From: Altererythrobacter sp. TH136
GTDB taxonomy: Bacteria; Pseudomonadota; Alphaproteobacteria; Sphingomonadales; Sphingomonadaceae
Direction: 5' to 3'
Assembly (NCBI RefSeq): GCF_007065885.1
Contig: NZ_CP041409.1
Span: forward strand, 1,287,501-1,351,500
DNA length: 64,000 nt
In this document: positions 55,081 through 64,000 of the stretch, in pieces
Layout of the letters: every line of letters begins with the position of its first letter
Numbering within the stretch: position 1 is the first letter of the stretch
Program-made: the position numbers and the translations under genes
Notes under the pieces: generated by a model
Told to the model about the DNA's origin: nothing
What the model saw: only the letters and a program-made list of their open reading frames with translations
Databases searched by the model: none

Positions 55081-55890
55081 TCAACCGGAACGCATGAGCG
55101 GCTGCGCGATCAAGGCCCGCCCGCCGCTGAATGCGATGTCCGACAACCGCTCCGCCATACCGCAGCCGCCCGGCTCGACCGCCTGTCCGGCCAGCGTAAC
55201 AGGGGCATCGACCGGGATCACCAGCAACGGCCCGCCGGCATAGCGCGCCGCGGTGGCCGCGTCAGGCTCTCCGTCGATCCGGTCCAGCCGGAAATGCGGT
55301 CCGTCAGCCAGCGTCACGTCGCCCCGATCGGGCACGTGCCGCCGAAGCTTCGGATCGTGCGGCCCGCCCTCGGCAACCGCAATTCCATCGTCGAGATGCA
55401 ATTCGCGCGGGCGGCCATAGTCGTATAGCCGATAGGTGATGTCGGAATTCTGCTGCACCTCGATCAGCGACAGTCCGGCGCCGATCGCATGCACGGTGTT
55501 GGCCGGCAGGTAGACGAAGTCGCCAGGCCCAACCTCGTGCCACGCGAGGAGTTGTTCGATCGATCCGTCCAGCGCGGCGGCGCGCATTTTTTCAGGCGAG
55601 ACCGGTTCGGTGAAGCCGATCGCCAGCTTCGCGCCCGGTTCGGCGGTCAGGACCAGCCAGCATTCCTCCTTGCCGCGGCTCCCGGCGGGGGCCTGCGCAT
55701 CGGACGGGTGCACCTGCACCGACAGGTTTTCGCTGGTGAACAGGTATTTCACCAGCAGTTCTGGCAGTTCGGGCGGTGGCTCGAACCAGATTTCGCCAAT
55801 CCGTTTCCCGTGGGGAGCGCTGAACGGCGGCGGGAGCGTGTCCTGGCCCCACGGCTTCTCGACCGATTTGGTGGGCAGCACCCGGCTCAT
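55081..55890 (-). CDS. manA: Type I phosphomannose isomerase (class I mannose-6-phosphate isomerase)
   Basis: A 269-residue cupin enzyme: the zinc ligands are visible in SVQVHPSDAQA (Gln, His), KEECWLVL (Glu) and PANTVHAIGAGL (His). It interconverts fructose-6-phosphate and mannose-6-phosphate and so feeds GDP-mannose synthesis. It is short for the family but has the full metal site. Its start overlaps the guanylyltransferase stop by 4 bp. Last gene of the four-gene mannose operon. Confidence 0.88.
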   Translation of the reverse strand: MSRVLPTKSVEKPWGQDTLPPPFSAPHGKRIGEIWFEPPPELPELLVKYLFTSENLSVQVHPSDAQAPAGSRGKEECWLVLTAEPGAKLAIGFTEPVSPEKMRAAALDGSIEQLLAWHEVGPGDFVYLPANTVHAIGAGLSLIEVQQNSDITYRLYDYGRPRELHLDDGIAVAEGGPHDPKLRRHVPDRGDVTLADGPHFRLDRIDGEPDAATAARYAGGPLLVIPVDAPVTLAGQAVEPGGCGMAERLSDIAFSGGRALIAQPLMRSG

Positions 55891-56921
55891 TGGTTGGCCG
55901 CCCCAGTCAGCTTGCCGACGAGTTGTGCTCCGGCGGCGCTGGTGACGAGAACCTCGTCCCCGTCCACCACCACGATGATGCCTTCCAGCCCAATCACCGA
56001 CACCCGCGGTCCGTCCGTTTCCACCAGTACGTTACGGCACTCGACCAGTTCGACGGGCCCATGCACCCGGTTGCCCGCATCGTCGCTGGGACGCGCATCG
56101 CGCAAGGCTTCCCAGTTGCCGATGTCGGACCAGCCCATGTCTGCCGGCACGACCGCTGCGCGCGCGGTGTTTTCCATGACGGCGTAATCGACCGACTCGC
56201 CATCAACGCCGGCGAAGGCGTCCGCCGCCGGATGAAACTCCTGCCCCTGGTACCGGCCCCCGGCGACCGCGCGGCGGACCGCTTCGGCCATGGCGGGCCG
56301 ATGCTGCTCCAACTCATCCATGAAGGCGCCTGCACGAAACGCGAAGATGCCGCCATTCCATGCGTAATTGCCTTCGGTCAGGAAGCGCTCGGCCGTCTCG
56401 CGATCCGGCTTTTCGACGAAGCGGTCGACCTTGTGGCCCCCCTCCATCGCCTCGCCCAGGCGGATGTAGCCGTAGCCCGTCTCCGCGCGGTCGGGTGCGA
56501 TGCCCAGCGCGACCATCCAGTCGTCCCCCGCCAGCCGGGCCGCTGCTCGCGCGGCGGCGGTGAAGCTGGCGATGTCGGCGATGTGGTGGTCGCTGGGGCA
56601 GACCAGCAGGATCGCGTCAGCCGGCAGCAGCGCCGCGGCGAGCGCAATCGCGGGCGCGGTGTTCTTCGCCGCCGGTTCGACGATCACCGTCGCCTCGGCC
56701 GGTGCCTGCTCGGCCAAGTGGCACAAGTGCCCCTGGCCCGCCACGATCACGGGTTCGGCGAAGTCGCTGGAGCCGTGCCATCGGTCGAGCGTAGCCTCGA
56801 GCAGGGTGCGCTCCCCCACCAGCGGGAGGAACGGCTTGGGCTTGGCCTTGCGGCTGCGCGGCCACAGGCGCGTGCCGCTGCCGCCGCACAGGATGACGGG
56901 ATGAATAAGAGCGGTGTTCAT
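55887..56921 (-). CDS. Mannose-1-phosphate guanylyltransferase
   Basis: A 344-residue nucleotidyltransferase: ILCGGSGTRLWPRSRKAKPK signature at about residue 9, VCPSDHHI, ETGYGYIRLGE, VEKPDRETAERF and NAWNGGIF-like YAWNGGIFAF. It makes GDP-mannose from mannose-1-phosphate and GTP. It has no C-terminal isomerase domain, which fits the separate isomerase gene next to it. The start at 56921 is preceded by GGGGG; a GTG two codons earlier is possible. Confidence 0.93.
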   Translation of the reverse strand: MNTALIHPVILCGGSGTRLWPRSRKAKPKPFLPLVGERTLLEATLDRWHGSSDFAEPVIVAGQGHLCHLAEQAPAEATVIVEPAAKNTAPAIALAAALLPADAILLVCPSDHHIADIASFTAAARAAARLAGDDWMVALGIAPDRAETGYGYIRLGEAMEGGHKVDRFVEKPDRETAERFLTEGNYAWNGGIFAFRAGAFMDELEQHRPAMAEAVRRAVAGGRYQGQEFHPAADAFAGVDGESVDYAVMENTARAAVVPADMGWSDIGNWEALRDARPSDDAGNRVHGPVELVECRNVLVETDGPRVSVIGLEGIIVVVDGDEVLVTSAAGAQLVGKLTGAANQ

Positions 56922-56942
56922 GATCACCCCCTTAACATTTGA

Positions 56943-58253
56943 TCAGACCATAAGTTGCAGCAGTTCGTCGATTTCGACCGATGCGAACCCCACTGAACTG
57001 TCGGAGATGCCGTAGGGCACGAACAGGCGCGAGCCCGTGCGCAGCGCGCCGCACGTATAGACCACGTTCGGGACATAGCCTGACCGGTCGGCGTTCTCGG
57101 CGCTCAGCACCGGTTCGGCGGTGCGACCGATCACCTTTGACGGGTCATCGAGGTCCAGCAGCGCCGCGCCAACGGTGTACTTGCGCATCGCGCCCACCCC
57201 GTGCGTGAACAGCAGCCAGCCGGCATCGGTCTTGATCGGACTGCCGCAATTGCCGATCTGGATGAACTCCCACGGATACTTGGGCTCCATCAGCAGGACG
57301 CCTTCGGTGTCCCACCGGTCGATCCGGCGCGAGCGAAGCAGGAACAGGTTCTTGCCGTCCTGCCGCCCGACCATGGCATACTGGCCGCCGACCTTTTCCG
57401 GGAACAGCGCCATGCCCTTGTTGCGCCCGGCGCGGCCCTGAATCGGTTCGAGCAGGAAACGGCGAAAGTCGGTCGTCCGCATCAGCTCGGACCGGATCGT
57501 GCTGCCCGAATAGGCAGTGTAGGTGCCGATCCATTCGAACTCGCCGCCGCCGTGGTCGAACCGCGTCAACCGCAGATCCTCCAGCCCCCCGCGCTGCTGC
57601 TCGGTGATCGGGAAGATGACCGTGTTCGACAGCGAGCTTTCCTGGTGGCGGTGCACCGTCACGCCCCGGTCGGCGTCATAAAGCGTGGAATCGTCCAGCT
57701 CGACCGACGTGGCGAACGCGCTCTGTGGCCACAGTTCGAAATGACCGTCGGGGTGCGCGATGCCTTCGCGAAACACGATCGAGCTGATGTGCCCTTCCCC
57801 CACCGCGCGCAGGGACATGACGAACCGCACCGCGCCATCCTCGCAGCCCGACTGATCGGGGTGCGGGACGATCGACGGGTTCATCAGGGCGGCCGCCGAA
57901 TACGTGTATTCGTGACAGAAATACGCCCCGATAAGCTTGCGGCGAACGGGCGAGAAATCGCACTCGTGAATGCCGAGATTGGTCGCCAGCTCGCGCCACC
58001 GCGTCTCGAAGATCGTCTCGGTCTGCCAATGCCGTTCTTTGAAGTCCGACAGGACCTTGCGATATTCGCGGCGCACCTGCGCCTCGCTCAGCGCGGCGAC
58101 GTCATTGACCAGCTTCTGCGCGCGGTTGCCCGGCGCGCCGGCGGCCTGCCATCCCAGGTGAAACGGGCGCAACACGACCCGCGACGGGTCGGCGTGAAGC
58201 CGTTGTTCAAGAATATGCAAGGGGCCGTGGACCGTCCTCTGCTCGATAGTCAA
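56943..58253 (-). CDS. GH130-family beta-mannoside phosphorylase-like enzyme
   Basis: A 436-residue protein. A helical N-terminal extension (about 1-110) precedes a five-bladed propeller with GH130 features: SSIVFREG, GLEDLRLTRFD (about 220, where most members read EDPR; the catalytic Asp is present), TYTAYSG, KGMALFPEKVGG and GNCGSPIKTDAGWLLFTHG. GH130 enzymes phosphorolyse beta-mannosides to alpha-mannose-1-phosphate; some are hydrolases. TTG 58253 is preceded by GGGGGAT and overlaps the upstream glycosyltransferase gene by 47 bp. Confidence 0.85.
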   Translation of the reverse strand: MTIEQRTVHGPLHILEQRLHADPSRVVLRPFHLGWQAAGAPGNRAQKLVNDVAALSEAQVRREYRKVLSDFKERHWQTETIFETRWRELATNLGIHECDFSPVRRKLIGAYFCHEYTYSAAALMNPSIVPHPDQSGCEDGAVRFVMSLRAVGEGHISSIVFREGIAHPDGHFELWPQSAFATSVELDDSTLYDADRGVTVHRHQESSLSNTVIFPITEQQRGGLEDLRLTRFDHGGGEFEWIGTYTAYSGSTIRSELMRTTDFRRFLLEPIQGRAGRNKGMALFPEKVGGQYAMVGRQDGKNLFLLRSRRIDRWDTEGVLLMEPKYPWEFIQIGNCGSPIKTDAGWLLFTHGVGAMRKYTVGAALLDLDDPSKVIGRTAEPVLSAENADRSGYVPNVVYTCGALRTGSRLFVPYGISDSSVGFASVEIDELLQLMV

Positions 58254-60558
58254 CGCGATCCCCCGCCGTTCGCGGCTTCGAATCGCCCGCGCTGTCCGGC
58301 GCGAGCGCTAGCATGGAATAGTGCCCCAGTTGAAACGCGAGGATCGATTCCGCACCGCAATTGATGTTCGCCCCGCGCGGGGTCAGCCCGTCCCGGCAGC
58401 GGCCCGTCGCCATGTCGGCCAGCACCACGCCGCGATCGTTGGCGCCGAAGAACCAGCTCCACGCCGCCGCCCCATGGGTCCGCCAGCGCTGATCGCCGGT
58501 GGCGCGCCAGGCCGCGAGCGAGGCATCGATGGCGGCCTGCGCCTCCAGCGGCTGCTGATCGAACGGGAGCTGCGCGTAAGGGTGGCCGAACGTCTCCGAC
58601 CCGATCGCCCGGAAATGTCCGTTCGGCGCGGTCTGGCGCTCCGCGATCCAGGCGAGGGTCTCGATCCCGCAGGCGGTCCATTCGGGGCGGCCAAGCACCT
58701 CGCCAGCCTCGATCAGCGCCTGCGACAGGCGCGGATTGTCGTATCCCAGCACCGCTTCGAACCACGCCCAATCGGGCCGCCGCGCGCCGCCAAGCAACCG
58801 TTCCAGCAAGGACGCGCCCTGCTCCAACGCCTCGAGCGAAGCCGCGTGACCGGGCCGGGCGCGCAGCATCGCCGCCGCGCCGAGCATGATGAACGCCACC
58901 GTACGAGGGCTTTCAAACCGCGCGAGGCACGGCAGCGCGGTGTCATACAGATCGGACGCCCACCGCTGGATGTCGGGATCGCTGCTGTCCTCGACCGTCC
59001 GGCCGAGCGTCCAGATCGCGCGGCCGTTGGAATCCTCCGACCCCAGATCCTCGCACCAGCTGCGGTCGAAGCGCATGAAGTTGCGGAACGCCCGCTTATC
59101 GGGATTCCACGCGTCCTGGATGAACGCGGCGTAGATCATCGCCAGCGACTGCCGTTCCTGCGGGCCGATGCCGTGCGCCTGGTTGATCAGCAACAGCGCG
59201 CGGACGTTGTCGTCCAGGCAGTACCCATGCCGCCGATCGGGCACGATGCCGATCGAATGCTGAAACATGCCCGTCCCATCGGTCATCGTGCGGACGCCGT
59301 GGAACGATGGCCGCGCGCGCGGTGCGTTTCGCGCAGGGGTCGCCACCGCCCGCTCGATCAGCGCGGCAGACGCGGCAGCGAAGCGCGGCCAGATGGTCTC
59401 GCGCCCGCGGGCATAAGCGCGCGCCTTCAGGGCGGCGAGTTCGTACGGGTCGTCGAGCAGGCCAATGACCGCATCGGCGATCGCCTTCGCCGAACGCGGT
59501 TCAATCAGCACACCCACCCCTTCCGCCAGCAGCTCGCGCGCATGGACGTAAGGGGTCGAGACGACCGCCTTGCCCAGCGCGACCGCATAGCTCAGCGTGC
59601 CGCTGGTCGACTGTTGCATGCCGGGATAGGGGGTCAGGTAGATGTCGCAGGCCTCGAGCTGGTCGAGGAGGTCGGGCGTATCGACGAACGTTTCCGACCA
59701 TTCGATCGCGTGCGCCACGCCCAGCCGTTCGGCGAGCGCCTTCAGCCCTTCGCGATAGCTTTCACCGTCGCGGGCCACCAGATTGGGGTGGGTCGCGCCG
59801 ACGATGCGATAGAGCACGTTCGGATGCCGAGCGAGGATGTCCGGCAGCGCCTCGATGACCGATTCCACGCCCTTGCTCGGTCCAAGCAGGCCGAAGGTGG
59901 TCAGGACCGTGCGCCCGGCCAGTCCGCGCCGGGCCTTGAACTCGTCCTCGCGCCCAAACGGGCGATCGGGCGCGCCATGCTCGATCACTTCGATCAGGTC
60001 GGCTGAGACGGCATAGAGTTCGACCAGCAGGTCGCGTGAGCGCTGCGACATGACCATGATCCGGGATGCGCGCCCGACAAGGTGCTCCATGATGCGACGC
60101 TGGCGTTCGGACGGCTCGGTCAGCACGGTGTGGAACGTGACGATCAGCGGCGCCGCCACCCGGTCCACGAAACCGCAGACCATCTCGCCATCGGGTCCGC
60201 CGAAGATGCCGTATTCGTGTTGCAGCCAGACCGCGTCGGCGCCAGTGGCGTCGATCGCCTGCGCGGCGCGGGCATAATCGTCCGGCTCGTCGCGCGCGAT
60301 CGTCCCGGCGATCGGGCCGTAGGAGAGCGGCGCGTCACGGTCTTCGAGTGCCCACACGTCCACGCTCACTTCGGGGCGGAAGCGGGCCAGTTGTTCGGTC
60401 ACATCGGCGGTGAAGGTCGCGATCCCGCATTTGCGCGGCGGGAAATTGCCGACCAGCGCGACGCGGCGCGGGGCGCGCGGGGATCGGAATGCGACCAGTT
60501 CTGTCTCGGCGCTCTCGGCACCCATGGGGAAGAGAGCGTTGGCGCGGCGTGCGTCCAT
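58207..60558 (-). CDS. Two-domain protein: GT4 glycosyltransferase fused to an (alpha/alpha) barrel-like domain
   Basis: A 783-residue protein. Residues about 25-400 form a GT4 (GT-B) glycosyltransferase: NFPPRKCGIATFTADVTEQL, FGLLGPSKGVESVIEAL, and the donor region PYPGMQQSTSGTLSYAVALG followed by VVSTPY. Residues about 415-760 are helical (HGYCLDDNVRALLLINQAHG, LGSEDSNGRAIWTLGR, TAPNGHFRAIGSETFG, CDQQP-like PFDQQPLEAQA) and resemble (alpha/alpha)6-barrel sugar enzymes. As first gene of a GDP-mannose operon, it probably uses GDP-mannose. ATG 60558 follows an AGGGAG with a long spacer. Confidence 0.82.
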   Translation of the reverse strand: MDARRANALFPMGAESAETELVAFRSPRAPRRVALVGNFPPRKCGIATFTADVTEQLARFRPEVSVDVWALEDRDAPLSYGPIAGTIARDEPDDYARAAQAIDATGADAVWLQHEYGIFGGPDGEMVCGFVDRVAAPLIVTFHTVLTEPSERQRRIMEHLVGRASRIMVMSQRSRDLLVELYAVSADLIEVIEHGAPDRPFGREDEFKARRGLAGRTVLTTFGLLGPSKGVESVIEALPDILARHPNVLYRIVGATHPNLVARDGESYREGLKALAERLGVAHAIEWSETFVDTPDLLDQLEACDIYLTPYPGMQQSTSGTLSYAVALGKAVVSTPYVHARELLAEGVGVLIEPRSAKAIADAVIGLLDDPYELAALKARAYARGRETIWPRFAAASAALIERAVATPARNAPRARPSFHGVRTMTDGTGMFQHSIGIVPDRRHGYCLDDNVRALLLINQAHGIGPQERQSLAMIYAAFIQDAWNPDKRAFRNFMRFDRSWCEDLGSEDSNGRAIWTLGRTVEDSSDPDIQRWASDLYDTALPCLARFESPRTVAFIMLGAAAMLRARPGHAASLEALEQGASLLERLLGGARRPDWAWFEAVLGYDNPRLSQALIEAGEVLGRPEWTACGIETLAWIAERQTAPNGHFRAIGSETFGHPYAQLPFDQQPLEAQAAIDASLAAWRATGDQRWRTHGAAAWSWFFGANDRGVVLADMATGRCRDGLTPRGANINCGAESILAFQLGHYSMLALAPDSAGDSKPRTAGDRVDYRAEDGPRPLAYS

Positions 60559-60694
60559 ACGGCGTGACGACTCCCTTGAGATTGGAAACTGACAAATGGC
60601 TGAATGAACGACGCGCGCGATGGTTCCATTGCGCTGCACCATTTCCGAGCGACCGGAAGCACGAACCGCGCCGCAATGCTGCGTCTGCGAACAG

Positions 60695-61417
60695 TCAGAA
60701 CCAGCGCTGTCGCCAGTAGAAGTCCGCCGCTACCGGATTGCCTGACGCGTCCGTCGCCGGGCGGAAGCGCAACCGCTGCTCGACCAGTCGGCAGGTGATC
60801 GCGTCTGCTTCCGGATCCGGGCTTGGCTTGTAGACGCTGCATCCTGATGCGCGTCCGTCGATCCCCACCGTCACCTTGACCACGACTTCGGACCCGATGC
60901 GTGCCTGCCGCCCGCCGGCCGGACGGGGGTAGTCGCGCGCGTTGTTGATCGCGCCACCGATCCATTCGGGCTTGGTCGCGATCCCGCCGCCCTGGCCCGT
61001 GCCGCCAGCGCCGCTCCCGGTCCCGGTGCCGGTGCCGCCCGCCCCCGTCCCAGTCCCGGCATCGCGCGCGCCCGAGCTGTTGTCGGTGCCGGTTGAGCTA
61101 GCCCGGGGCGCCGGGGGAGCCGGCTTGACGGTGATGGCGGGCACGGGCGCCACGACCGGGCGGGGAACCGCCTTGCGCCCTTCTTCCCCCGCAGCCCCGC
61201 TGTCGGGTTCCGGTTGCGGGGGCGGGGGCTCGTACTGTTTGGTCTCGACCGTGACGGTGACGGCGGACAGCACGGCCCGCTCCACCGAAGCGGTCTGCTG
61301 CGGGGCAAACGCGCGCGCCAGCGCATAGATCGCCAGCAGGTGCAGCAGCACGATCGCTGCCAGCGCAGCCGGCCGCGGCCGGCGCGGCATGGTGGAAAAG
61401 GAAGCCTCCGTCGCCAT
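60695..61417 (-). CDS. tonB: TonB energy-transducing protein
   Basis: A 240-residue protein: N-terminal anchor (about residues 17-36), a Pro-rich spacer (YEPPPPQPEPD, then APPAPR), an unusual Gly/Thr-rich repeat stretch (GTGTGAGG type), and the TonB C-terminal domain (SEVVVKVTVGIDGRASGCSV, then LVEQRLRFRPATDASGNPV). It couples proton-motive force to outer-membrane receptors. It lies just downstream of the TonB-dependent receptor gene, separated by a terminator. exbB and exbD are not in the window. Confidence 0.88.
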   Translation of the reverse strand: MATEASFSTMPRRPRPAALAAIVLLHLLAIYALARAFAPQQTASVERAVLSAVTVTVETKQYEPPPPQPEPDSGAAGEEGRKAVPRPVVAPVPAITVKPAPPAPRASSTGTDNSSGARDAGTGTGAGGTGTGTGSGAGGTGQGGGIATKPEWIGGAINNARDYPRPAGGRQARIGSEVVVKVTVGIDGRASGCSVYKPSPDPEADAITCRLVEQRLRFRPATDASGNPVAADFYWRQRWF

Positions 61418-61476
61418 TCCGTGATCAAACGACAAGCGCGGCAGGGGCGTTCCGCCGGTACCGCCCTCCGCACACG

Positions 61477-61511
61477 AAAACGGCGGCGCTCCCGCAGAAG
61501 GAGCGCCGCCG
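61477..61511 (-). terminator. Intrinsic terminator of the TonB-dependent receptor gene
   Basis: On the minus strand CGGCGGCGCTCC and GGAGCGCCGCCG form a perfect 12-bp stem with a 7-nt loop, followed by TTTTCG. It lies 24 bp after the receptor stop codon and 60 bp before the tonB start. Confidence 0.88.
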
Positions 61512-61535
61512 CTGTTCAAGTCGAAGCCGACCGGA

Positions 61536-64000
61536 TCAGAAGTCGTAGCTGATGCCGACCTTCAGGCGCCACACCGACGACGACACGTTGATGCCGTTGT
61601 CGTCATCGAACGGCACCACTCCGGTGGTCGCGTTCGCCGTGATGGTGTTCGCATTGGCGAAGATATAGCGCCCCTGCGAATCCACACCGGTGACCTGCGC
61701 GATGTCCTGACGGCCTGCGAAGTCCCGGCGCCGCTGGATGTTCCAGTCATTGTCGAGGAAGTTCAGGAAGTTGTCCATCGTGGCGTAGAGCTTGATGCTG
61801 TCCTCGCGTCCGAAGAAGCGGCCCGGTCCGGGGATCTCCTGCGAGAACGACAGGTCGAGGTCGTAGTACCAGTCGTTGGAGCAGGTGTTCCGCTCGATCG
61901 ACTGGCCGAGGTAATCCCGCGCGCACTTCAGACCGCTTGCGAAATCAGCCACCCGCTGCGCCACGCCCGCCGTCGAAAGCGGCGACACGTTCGGGTCGCT
62001 CGCGCCGGTCGGGATGTACAGCAGCGCGTTGTCCGCACCCGATGCCGAATCGTTGAACACGCCGCTGCCCGTGAAGGTCAGGCTGTACGGACGGCCCGAA
62101 CGCGCCACGAAGGTCAGGCCCAGTCGGGTCGACAGGTCGCTGAAGAACTGCTCCTCGAAGCTCGTCGACAACGAGATGTTGTGCTTGCTCGAGAAGAAGC
62201 CGCGCGATGCGGCCGGGTTCTGGCGATCGAACGCTGCGGACAGGTCGTAGTTCGACGTTGCGGTCGAGTTGTACATGTTCCGCCGGTCCTGCGCGGCCGA
62301 GAAGGCATAACCCAGGCTGAAGAACGTGGAGCCGCCGTCGGTGAACACACCGCCGTCGAAGTTCTTCGAGAGGATCGCCGAGGCATTGTGGCTGTTGAAC
62401 GCGCCTGCGTTGGTCAGCATCAGCTCGTCCTCACGCGCCGTAGTGACGCAAGCGGCGGTGACGCCGGTGAAGATCGGCGTCGGCGTGATGTCGGTCAGCT
62501 TCGCATTGCAACCGGCCCGCAGCGGATCGATCGTCACGTAGATCGGACGACCGTCGATCGTGAACCCGTTCAAGCCTGCACCCAGGTTCGGGGTCTGGCT
62601 GAGATCGACGATCGTGTACGGATCGCGCGTGCGGCTGAAGATGTAATCGAGGTTGAGATTCCATCCGCTGAAGAAGCCGCTGGGCGCGAAGTTCAGCTCC
62701 GAAGCGAAGCCGACGTTGGCGCGCAGCACGCTGGGCGTCTTGATGTCGGGATCGATCGACTGGGTGAAACCCTGGCCGGCGGATGCCGTTGCGATCGCAG
62801 CGTTGCGGAAGCAGGTCGGCACCCCGGTGAACGTGCCGTTGGTGACGACATCGATCTGCCCGGTGGGGCAACCGGCAGCCTGGGTGCTGGCCAGAGCGAA
62901 GGCGCTGCCATCGTTCTGGAACGCGTTGCCGAACCACACGAGCGGGTCGCCGCCCGAGAAGATGCCCACGCCGGCACGGAACTGGCTGCGCGAGAACACG
63001 GCGAAGTCATCCGCGTCGTAGGTGAACGCGACGCGCGGCATGATGATCGGGTCGAGATCGCTGAACCCGGCGTTGTTGTTGATGCCGTAACGCGACACGA
63101 ACACCGGGTTCCGTTCCGGGCGGCCACCGTCGTACCATTCCAGCCGCACGCCGGCCGTCACCGCAAGGGCGTCGGTCGCCTGCCACTCGTCCTGGAGGAA
63201 GGCCGAATAGATCGTCCGCTTGAACTCGGCACCTGCGTCGGTGACGTTGCCGGTGGCCGAAACGTTGCCGAACGCGCCTTCGGTGTTCCCGTTGACGATG
63301 TTGATCGGCGTGGTGCTGGTCGAGTTGTTGCCCAGACCCGGCGACAGCAAACCGGCGCGCAGGTCGTTGATGTTGCGGAAAACCAGCGTTCCGGTCGCGT
63401 TCGCCACGAACAGGTTGAACAGGTCCGCCCGGTTCGCTTCCATGCCGAGCTTGATCTGGTGCGCGCCGGCATCGAGGCGGAGGACGCCGCGGTACTGTTC
63501 GATCGTCGTCTGCAGGTCGTTCGCGGAGCGGTTGCTGCCCGGGCCGGCAAGCACCGCACCGTCAGGCGTGGTCCCGGTGTTGTCGATGCCGACGATGATG
63601 CGCGGGATCGGGTTGTCCGACTGCGCTTCGCCGCCGCCGATCGGATCCTGCAGATCCTGCACTTCCGAACGCGAGTAACGGAACTCGCTGGAGAGGACGT
63701 CGCTCCACTGCGAGAACAGGCGCGCCGAATAGTAGTTCGACTTGGTGCCGCTCAGGTAGAACGTGTTCTGGCCCACGACTTGCGGCGAGGACTGGCCGGT
63801 GAACAGATCGTCGGCGCGGGTCGTCGATTCCTCGAGGCGCTGATAGGTCGCTTCAAGGCGGTGATCGTCGTTGATCTGAAGATCGCCGCGGAGGAACCAG
63901 CGCTCGTTGCTGAAGGGACGGTTGTAGACCAGCGGGCCGGTGTCGATGCCGTAGACATCGCGGATGACCTGCGAGATTTCGTCGAACTGCGCCTTGGTGA
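61536..64000 (-). CDS. Oar-type TonB-dependent outer-membrane receptor (5' end outside window)
   Basis: The frame is open to the window edge; the C-terminal 820 residues are visible. They form alternating strands of a large beta-barrel and end in KVGISYDF, with the terminal Phe typical of outer-membrane barrels recognised by BamA. Segments such as DLDLSFSQEIPGPGRFFGRE and the long extracellular loops with paired cysteines fit Oar/CarboxypepD-regulatory-type receptors. The N-terminal plug and TonB box are not visible. The substrate is unknown; the adjacent tonB and the upstream mannose genes are suggestive only. Confidence 0.88.
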   Translation of the reverse strand, partial: TKAQFDEISQVIRDVYGIDTGPLVYNRPFSNERWFLRGDLQINDDHRLEATYQRLEESTTRADDLFTGQSSPQVVGQNTFYLSGTKSNYYSARLFSQWSDVLSSEFRYSRSEVQDLQDPIGGGEAQSDNPIPRIIVGIDNTGTTPDGAVLAGPGSNRSANDLQTTIEQYRGVLRLDAGAHQIKLGMEANRADLFNLFVANATGTLVFRNINDLRAGLLSPGLGNNSTSTTPINIVNGNTEGAFGNVSATGNVTDAGAEFKRTIYSAFLQDEWQATDALAVTAGVRLEWYDGGRPERNPVFVSRYGINNNAGFSDLDPIIMPRVAFTYDADDFAVFSRSQFRAGVGIFSGGDPLVWFGNAFQNDGSAFALASTQAAGCPTGQIDVVTNGTFTGVPTCFRNAAIATASAGQGFTQSIDPDIKTPSVLRANVGFASELNFAPSGFFSGWNLNLDYIFSRTRDPYTIVDLSQTPNLGAGLNGFTIDGRPIYVTIDPLRAGCNAKLTDITPTPIFTGVTAACVTTAREDELMLTNAGAFNSHNASAILSKNFDGGVFTDGGSTFFSLGYAFSAAQDRRNMYNSTATSNYDLSAAFDRQNPAASRGFFSSKHNISLSTSFEEQFFSDLSTRLGLTFVARSGRPYSLTFTGSGVFNDSASGADNALLYIPTGASDPNVSPLSTAGVAQRVADFASGLKCARDYLGQSIERNTCSNDWYYDLDLSFSQEIPGPGRFFGREDSIKLYATMDNFLNFLDNDWNIQRRRDFAGRQDIAQVTGVDSQGRYIFANANTITANATTGVVPFDDDNGINVSSSVWRLKVGISYDF

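Follow-up and report, generated by a model that had tools for sequence, protein, structure and literature searches.

Enzymes of family GH130 with known activities act on beta-mannosides (PMC8950772, PMC4264767). In Thermoanaerobacter, the cluster Teth514_1785-1796 contains GH130 genes together with those of a mannose-1-phosphate guanylyltransferase (GMP) and a GT4 glycosyltransferase, and a salvage function has been proposed for it (PMC4264767); thus, the occurrence of these three in one cluster is already known. Here, we describe an operon located in a 64,000-nucleotide stretch (the window) of the complete 2.61 Mb genome of the sphingomonad Altererythrobacter sp. TH136, which encodes a GT4 glycosyltransferase fused to a C-terminal (alpha/alpha)-barrel domain, a long-form GH130 protein, a GMP and a phosphomannose isomerase (PMI). 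What is new is the fusion of GT4 to a barrel, the long form of GH130, the near-strict pairing of the two across phyla, the recruitment of PMI, phosphomannomutase (PMM) or AGE genes, and the stress promoters. In the literature searched, outside which the subscription journals lay, no description of a GT4-(alpha/alpha)-barrel/GH130 pair was found. Gene content, family membership, pair conservation, active-site residues, mannose-gene linkage and promoter-motif enrichment were determined computationally.

The GT4-fusion/GH130 pair and its mannose-supply genes

The four genes lie on the minus strand. The GT4 fusion (58207-60558; 783 aa, ATG start in a frame that opens at 60642) consists of a GT-B (GT4) domain at residues about 28-410 (59329-60477) and an all-helical (alpha/alpha)-barrel domain assigned from the structure model and homology to residues about 420-757 (58288-59301). 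It is followed by the long GH130 (56943-58253; 436 aa, TTG start), a beta-1,2-mannoside phosphorylase-like protein, the GMP without a C-terminal isomerase domain (55887-56921; ATG start, with a GTG at 56927 also possible), and a short class I mannose-6-phosphate isomerase (55081-55890) identified from its sequence and annotated homologues. The GT4/GH130 and GMP/PMI genes overlap by 47 and 4 bp, respectively, and a gap of 21 bp separates GH130 from GMP. These families, strand and spacings agree with an earlier sequence-only reading of this DNA.

When GTDB contigs were scanned with the alignment of the GT4 fusion, 80 loci were obtained, which belong to Sphingomonadales, Caulobacterales, Hyphomicrobiales, Bacteroidota, Verrucomicrobiota, Planctomycetota, Acidobacteriota and Ignavibacteria. 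GH130 was present within the fetched flank in 77 of them, nearly always directly downstream and either overlapping or less than about 110 bp away. Additionally, 149 genomes of the order were sampled; the 20 genomes of the same family that have the fusion were exactly the 20 that have the long GH130, while three more distant genomes carried the fusion paired with a short GH130 instead. The partnership is very tight, and it spans several phyla and many plasmids. The exact GT4-GH130-GMP-PMI order was found outside the window in only three of the 80 loci, from Tsuneonella rigui (L077), a Novosphingobium metagenome-assembled genome (L083) and N. cyanobacteriorum (L114). Thus, the four-gene order, whose conservation across sphingomonads the sequence-only reading had raised as a check, recurs in relatives but is rare and lineage-specific, and the conserved unit is the pair. 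Its recurrence and the proximity of the pair in 77 of 80 loci indicate that the operon is not a product of chance.

The idea that the genes form one mannose unit is borne out by the neighbours that the pair acquires. In 30 of 104 loci, a gene for PMI, GMP or PMM, or an AGE gene resembling those of D-mannose isomerases, is located no more than 3.5 kb from the fusion and on its strand. The arrangements include a downstream GMP-PMI (the clade of the window), a downstream PMI alone, an upstream PMI (Hyphomicrobiales), an upstream GMP and a downstream AGE (Rhizobium). Plasmid p1 of Sphingobium xenophagum carries the full set, GMP-PMI-GT4-GH130-PMM, and two distant genomes have near the pair a non-homologous type II PMI cupin, recognized by eye from its RPWG-type sequence. 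None of these genes (PMI, GMP, PMM or AGE) was found in the 17 related loci without a full fusion beside them. This repeated recruitment is the strongest evidence for mannose in the product.

The GMP matched PF00483 with 161 bits (cut-off 21.2) and TIGR01479 with 326 bits over profile positions 1-342, which cover its nucleotidyltransferase domain; the full-length TIGR01479 cut-off (373) was missed because the PMI domain is absent. The PMI had no Pfam match and scored 63 bits against TIGR00218, the manA equivalog, for which the cut-off is 116. Nevertheless, its homologues on annotated plasmids are labelled class I mannose-6-phosphate isomerase, and its sequence shows candidate Gln/His/Glu/His metal ligands in the motifs QVHPSD, KEE and HAIGAG. 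Both GMP and PMI are the sole copies in the genome. Two PGM/PMM-family genes are located elsewhere in the genome and can supply the missing mutase, as the sequence-only reading had anticipated; in S. xenophagum, a PMM joins the set itself.

Blind clustering of the neighbouring open reading frames, in which spurious frames of GC-rich DNA dominated, returned no further conserved partner. Other arrangements of the same families were seen on plasmids. The conjugative plasmid pILYOP02 of the fusobacterium Ilyobacter polytropus (L041:8000-13726) carries a plain GT4, a short GH130, a long GH130 and the GT4 fusion in a row that adjoins recombinase and IS256 genes. On a Deinococcus plasmid, the fusion is accompanied by another GT4 and by a gene resembling a short GH130, which is annotated as hypothetical. 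In L040, L043 and L071-L076, long GH130 paralogues stand alone, with no GT4 fusion next to them; one of them has a distant GT4, and that of L040 is plasmid-borne and flanked by copper-resistance genes. Directly upstream of the operon, the minus strand of the window encodes a TonB-like protein and a TonB-dependent receptor (60695-63998), and in Tsuneonella L077 a TonB end is likewise located upstream of the operon.

Active-site residues of the fusion and of GH130

Based on its matches to the GT4 models of Pfam (PF00534, 63 bits, cut-off 26.4; PF13439, 31 bits) and on a GT-B fold of the MshA/PimA type, the fusion belongs to GT4. The Foldseek neighbours of its AlphaFold model (predicted local distance difference test, pLDDT, 88.7) were MshA, PimA and YPO2471, and its GT-B domain most resembled MshA and PimA. 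The GT-B fold neighbours span users of UDP- and GDP-sugars, among them the GDP-mannose users PimA and PimB'. The canonical donor-site motifs of GT4, R-x4-K and E-x7-E, are not kept. Each of the 40 aligned members has Leu (L224) in place of the first motif's Arg, with L or I at 225 and K229 retained, and Ser or Ala (S323 in TH136) in place of the second Glu of the other; Q316 and S319-G320-(T/A)-L322 are invariant at that site. The GT4 paralogues of the same genome retain the Glu pair of E-x7-E. Since the canonical donor Arg and second Glu are replaced, the donor is not inferable from these motifs.

The C-terminal barrel has no matching Pfam family. Its invariant acidic residues, D449, D450, D509, E601, D667, D708 and E737, suggest a role in catalysis or sugar binding. 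The domain is homologous to the exported protein YPO2471 (PDB 7TEM; profile E 2e-13, TMt 0.68). A stand-alone exported YPO2471-like barrel was also observed in a complete-looking mannoside catabolic cluster (L182:2262-19288), along with an ABC transporter, a LacI regulator, a GH13, a Lin0857-like GH130, DUF1861, a TonB receptor, a ROK kinase, an AGE epimerase and a PMM, and it thus provides a second tie between this barrel fold and mannoside metabolism.

The GH130 protein matched PF04041 with 98.8 bits (cut-off 26), its model (pLDDT 90.3) is a five-bladed propeller, and its best fold matches are all GH130 structures. In a profile search of PDB, the closest entries were the 1,2-beta-oligomannan and beta-1,2-mannobiose phosphorylases Teth514_1788/1789 (E 4e-47 and 1e-45), followed by Lin0857, and the fold ranking gave the same order. 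All 36 family members compared share residues N125, E225-D226, K279, R297, H351 and D418. In the Teth514 enzymes, Chiku et al. assigned the catalytic Asp and the -1 subsite residues to Asn28, Asp92/98 and Asp281/287 (PMC4264767), and the alignments place N125, D226 and D418 at these positions. A Glu preceding the catalytic Asp and a conserved Lys were described as marks of beta-1,2-acting GH130 enzymes by Cuskin et al. (PMC4599007) and Chiku et al. (PMC4264767); under the rule of Cuskin et al., the first is Glu and not Tyr, and the second is Lys199 of BT3780. Both marks have counterparts here, namely the invariant E225-D226 and the invariant K279, which is common to both Teth514 enzymes and was equated with Lys199 by elimination, without a direct alignment to BT3780.

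GH130 phosphorylases have three basic phosphate-binding residues, in place of which hydrolases have acids. R297 aligns with an Arg and H351 with a His of the Teth514 phosphorylases, a correspondence drawn by homology only, and K279 and R357 are also invariant. The protein is thus probably of phosphorylase type, with residues that resemble those of beta-1,2-mannoside phosphorylases. Its scores against the two beta-1,2-mannobiose phosphorylase equivalogs of NCBIfam are well below the cut-offs (138.7 vs 450 and 134.2 vs 550 bits), and the N-terminal region of about 110 residues (57924-58253), composed of strands and four helices in the structure model, is missing from the short GH130s of L041 and L042. 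The long GH130 therefore constitutes a distinct subgroup.

A second GH130 gene is present in the genome (C1:2553517-2554659; L003:9618-10763). Among PDB entries, it is matched best by the beta-1,2-mannobiose phosphorylase Lin0857, in view of which a GH130_1 identity was dropped. The gene sits within an apparent histidine biosynthesis run, with hisB/hisH upstream and hisA/hisF downstream. A Lin0857-like second GH130 was found in 14 sampled genomes, all of which belong to the 20 with the pair, a count inflated by the kinship of the genomes. In each of genera g4, g6 and g13, one genome has both the pair and the second GH130, and others lack both; in four cases (L053, L055, L106 and L118), the pair and the second GH130 share a locus.

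Proposed pathway and alternative explanations

GT4 enzymes retain the anomeric configuration, and GDP-mannose is an alpha-linked donor, so an alpha-mannoside is expected from the fusion. GH130 enzymes are inverting and beta-acting; therefore, GH130 should not release mannose 1-phosphate (Man1P) from the bond that the glycosyltransferase makes. This stereochemical mismatch implies that the two enzymes should act on different bonds of one glycan.

We accordingly favour, tentatively and at somewhat less than an even chance, a reading in which the pair is a conserved module for the synthesis and turnover, inside the cell, of an oligo- or polysaccharide that contains mannose in two types of linkage, and in which this module is served in TH136 by the sole PMI and GMP and has a role in stress. 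The donor, acceptor, linkage, direction and physiological role are those that we infer for the following pathway. PMI would convert fructose 6-phosphate to mannose 6-phosphate, a PGM/PMM enzyme encoded elsewhere would yield alpha-Man1P, and GMP would produce GDP-mannose. The GT4 fusion would then use a nucleotide sugar, probably GDP-mannose, to form an alpha-linked primer or cap. On that acceptor, the inverting GH130 would catalyse the reversible reaction of alpha-Man1P and acceptor to beta-mannoside (beta-1,2-mannose) and phosphate, so that high Man1P would favour extension and high phosphate would return Man1P. A surface mannoside, which the sequence-only reading had offered beside a storage compound, is not favoured: visual inspection revealed no signal peptide, and genes for transport or export did not recur beside the pair in the neighbourhoods examined.

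In sphingomonads, the general stress sigma factor EcfG may control the operon, at least in part. Of 66 sphingomonad loci, 11 have the EcfG consensus GGAAC-N17-20-GTT (PMC6599016) in the 300 bp upstream of the fusion, compared with an expectation of 0.8 based on random windows drawn from these loci. Tsuneonella L077 has GGAAC-N17-GTT at -56, and the window has an EcfG-like GGAAC-N17-ATT at the aligned place (60603-60627, minus strand), which precedes the GT4 start by 69 nt. When the window was scanned strictly for GGAAC-N15-18-CGTT, no site was found upstream of the fusion; EcfG control of the operon in TH136 is therefore plausible rather than shown. Such control in sphingomonads would make a stress or stationary-phase reserve or protectant the likely role of the product. 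Genes for Hsp20, universal stress proteins or chaperones neighbour the pair in a few loci. In two distant genomes (L191:6584-14986 and L192:6525-15319), the GT4 fusion and a short GH130 precede genes for a phosphoenolpyruvate synthase-like enzyme, a type II PMI cupin and a CBS protein; universal stress and Hsp20 proteins are encoded nearby, and the region may be a dormancy or stress island. As an explanation for all loci, a stress island was rejected, with Hsp20, universal stress protein or PpsA genes in only 2-4 of 104 loci. In S. melonis, the EcfG-dependent genes #1750 ('glycosyltransferase') and #1751 ('glycosidases') have been reported (PMC6599016); their identity with the pair is undecided by annotation, and they were not used as evidence.

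Several observations weigh against the favoured reading. Neither core protein has a known activity. The donor motifs of the fusion are atypical, so that its donor may be other than GDP-mannose, and the assignment of the phosphate-binding residues of GH130 comes from homology and not from a ligand complex. About 70 of the 104 loci have no mannose gene nearby, and the sole GMP and PMI may also serve other glycans. As to stress control, the opposite-strand control gave the EcfG motif in 4 of 66 loci, the site in the window has ATT where the consensus has GTT, a difference of one base, and none of the 36 loci outside sphingomonads had the motif, for which reason EcfG control there was rejected.

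The sequence-only reading had proposed a loop, which requires that a beta-mannoside formed by the glycosyltransferase from GDP-mannose be phosphorolysed at that very linkage by GH130, giving back Man1P. The gene content, the coupling of the genes and the probable phosphorylase type of GH130 agree with such recycling, and that part is retained; the shared bond is not, and the assumed donor is kept only as probable. A retaining GT4 acting on alpha-configured GDP-mannose would give an alpha product. Characterized GH130s are beta-acting (PMC8950772, PMC4264767), and the loop in this form appears quite improbable. Alternatively, GH130 could phosphorolyse imported beta-1,2-mannosides, with Man1P feeding GMP and the glycosyltransferase being a downstream user of GDP-mannose. 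The Thermoanaerobacter cluster, with two GH130s, GMP and GT4 (PMC4264767), is a precedent for this salvage, and the TonB-like and receptor genes just upstream in the window fit it, but the ABC transporter and GH5 of Thermoanaerobacter do not recur beside the pair, and the fusion is linked far more tightly to GH130 than to GMP (77 vs 6 of the 80 loci); we consider salvage distinctly unlikely.

The replaced donor residues in 40 of 40 members and nearest GT-B structures that use both UDP- and GDP-sugars would also accommodate a heteroside, in which the fusion transfers a sugar other than mannose (e.g., glucose) and mannose is only the residue handled by GH130. This is improbable given that GMP as well as PMI is repeatedly recruited and that the fold neighbours PimA and PimB' use GDP-mannose. 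Finally, PMI and GMP could be housekeeping suppliers of GDP-mannose for envelope glycans, placed downstream of the pair for convenience of expression. Their status as sole copies, the existence of other GT4s and the few relatives with the exact order are compatible with this, whereas the linkage of PMI, GMP, PMM or AGE to the pair in several arrangements, and a genome in which no GDP-mannose dehydratase scored above the cut-off, make an accidental operon very improbable.

If the pair makes and banks a beta-1,2-mannoside, as under the favoured reading, it would provide bacteria with a reserve or protectant based on mannose, as a parallel to glycogen and trehalose. It would also give a physiological role to a GH130 branch that has so far been without one, and one output of the sphingomonad general stress response would become testable at a single small operon.

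Comparison with known systems

Like the mannosyltransferases PimA and PimB' and like MshA, the fusion has a GT-B fold, a GT4 domain and the invariant donor-site Lys; it differs from them in the replaced Arg of R-x4-K and second Glu of E-x7-E and in the added C-terminal (alpha/alpha) domain. YPO2471 (PDB 7TEM) is exported and stand-alone, unlike the barrel fused to the glycosyltransferase.

The mannogen enzymes of Leishmania (GT108) have a GH130-related beta-propeller, act both as GDP-mannose-dependent transferases and as phosphorylases, and store and recycle beta-1,2-mannan with Man1P (PMC8950772). Among the fold matches of the window GH130, bacterial GH130 ranked first (E 6e-22), and the Leishmania GDP-mannose-dependent mannosyltransferase ranked 37th (E 4e-6). 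A dual enzyme of the GT108 type was rejected for the window, with no GT108 among the PDB sequence matches at E <= 1e-3 and a weak fold match. The window GH130 gave no evidence of GDP-mannose use, and it has a GT4-type partner. A somewhat unlikely extension of the favoured reading is a bacterial counterpart of mannogen, i.e., a stress-induced intracellular beta-1,2-mannan reserve found in several phyla and on plasmids, for which a GT4-(alpha/alpha)-barrel enzyme of a new type would make the primer and the long GH130 would do the banking.

The Thermoanaerobacter cluster shares with the window the association of GH130 beta-1,2-mannoside phosphorylases with GMP and GT4, as well as two GH130 types. 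It has short GH130s, a GT4 annotated as an alpha-mannosyltransferase, an ABC transporter and a GH5, with no PMI listed, whereas the window has a long GH130, a GT4 fused to an (alpha/alpha) barrel and a PMI, with no recurrent transporter. By analogy, the pair and the Lin0857-like GH130 recall the division of labour between oligomannan and mannobiose phosphorylases in Thermoanaerobacter.

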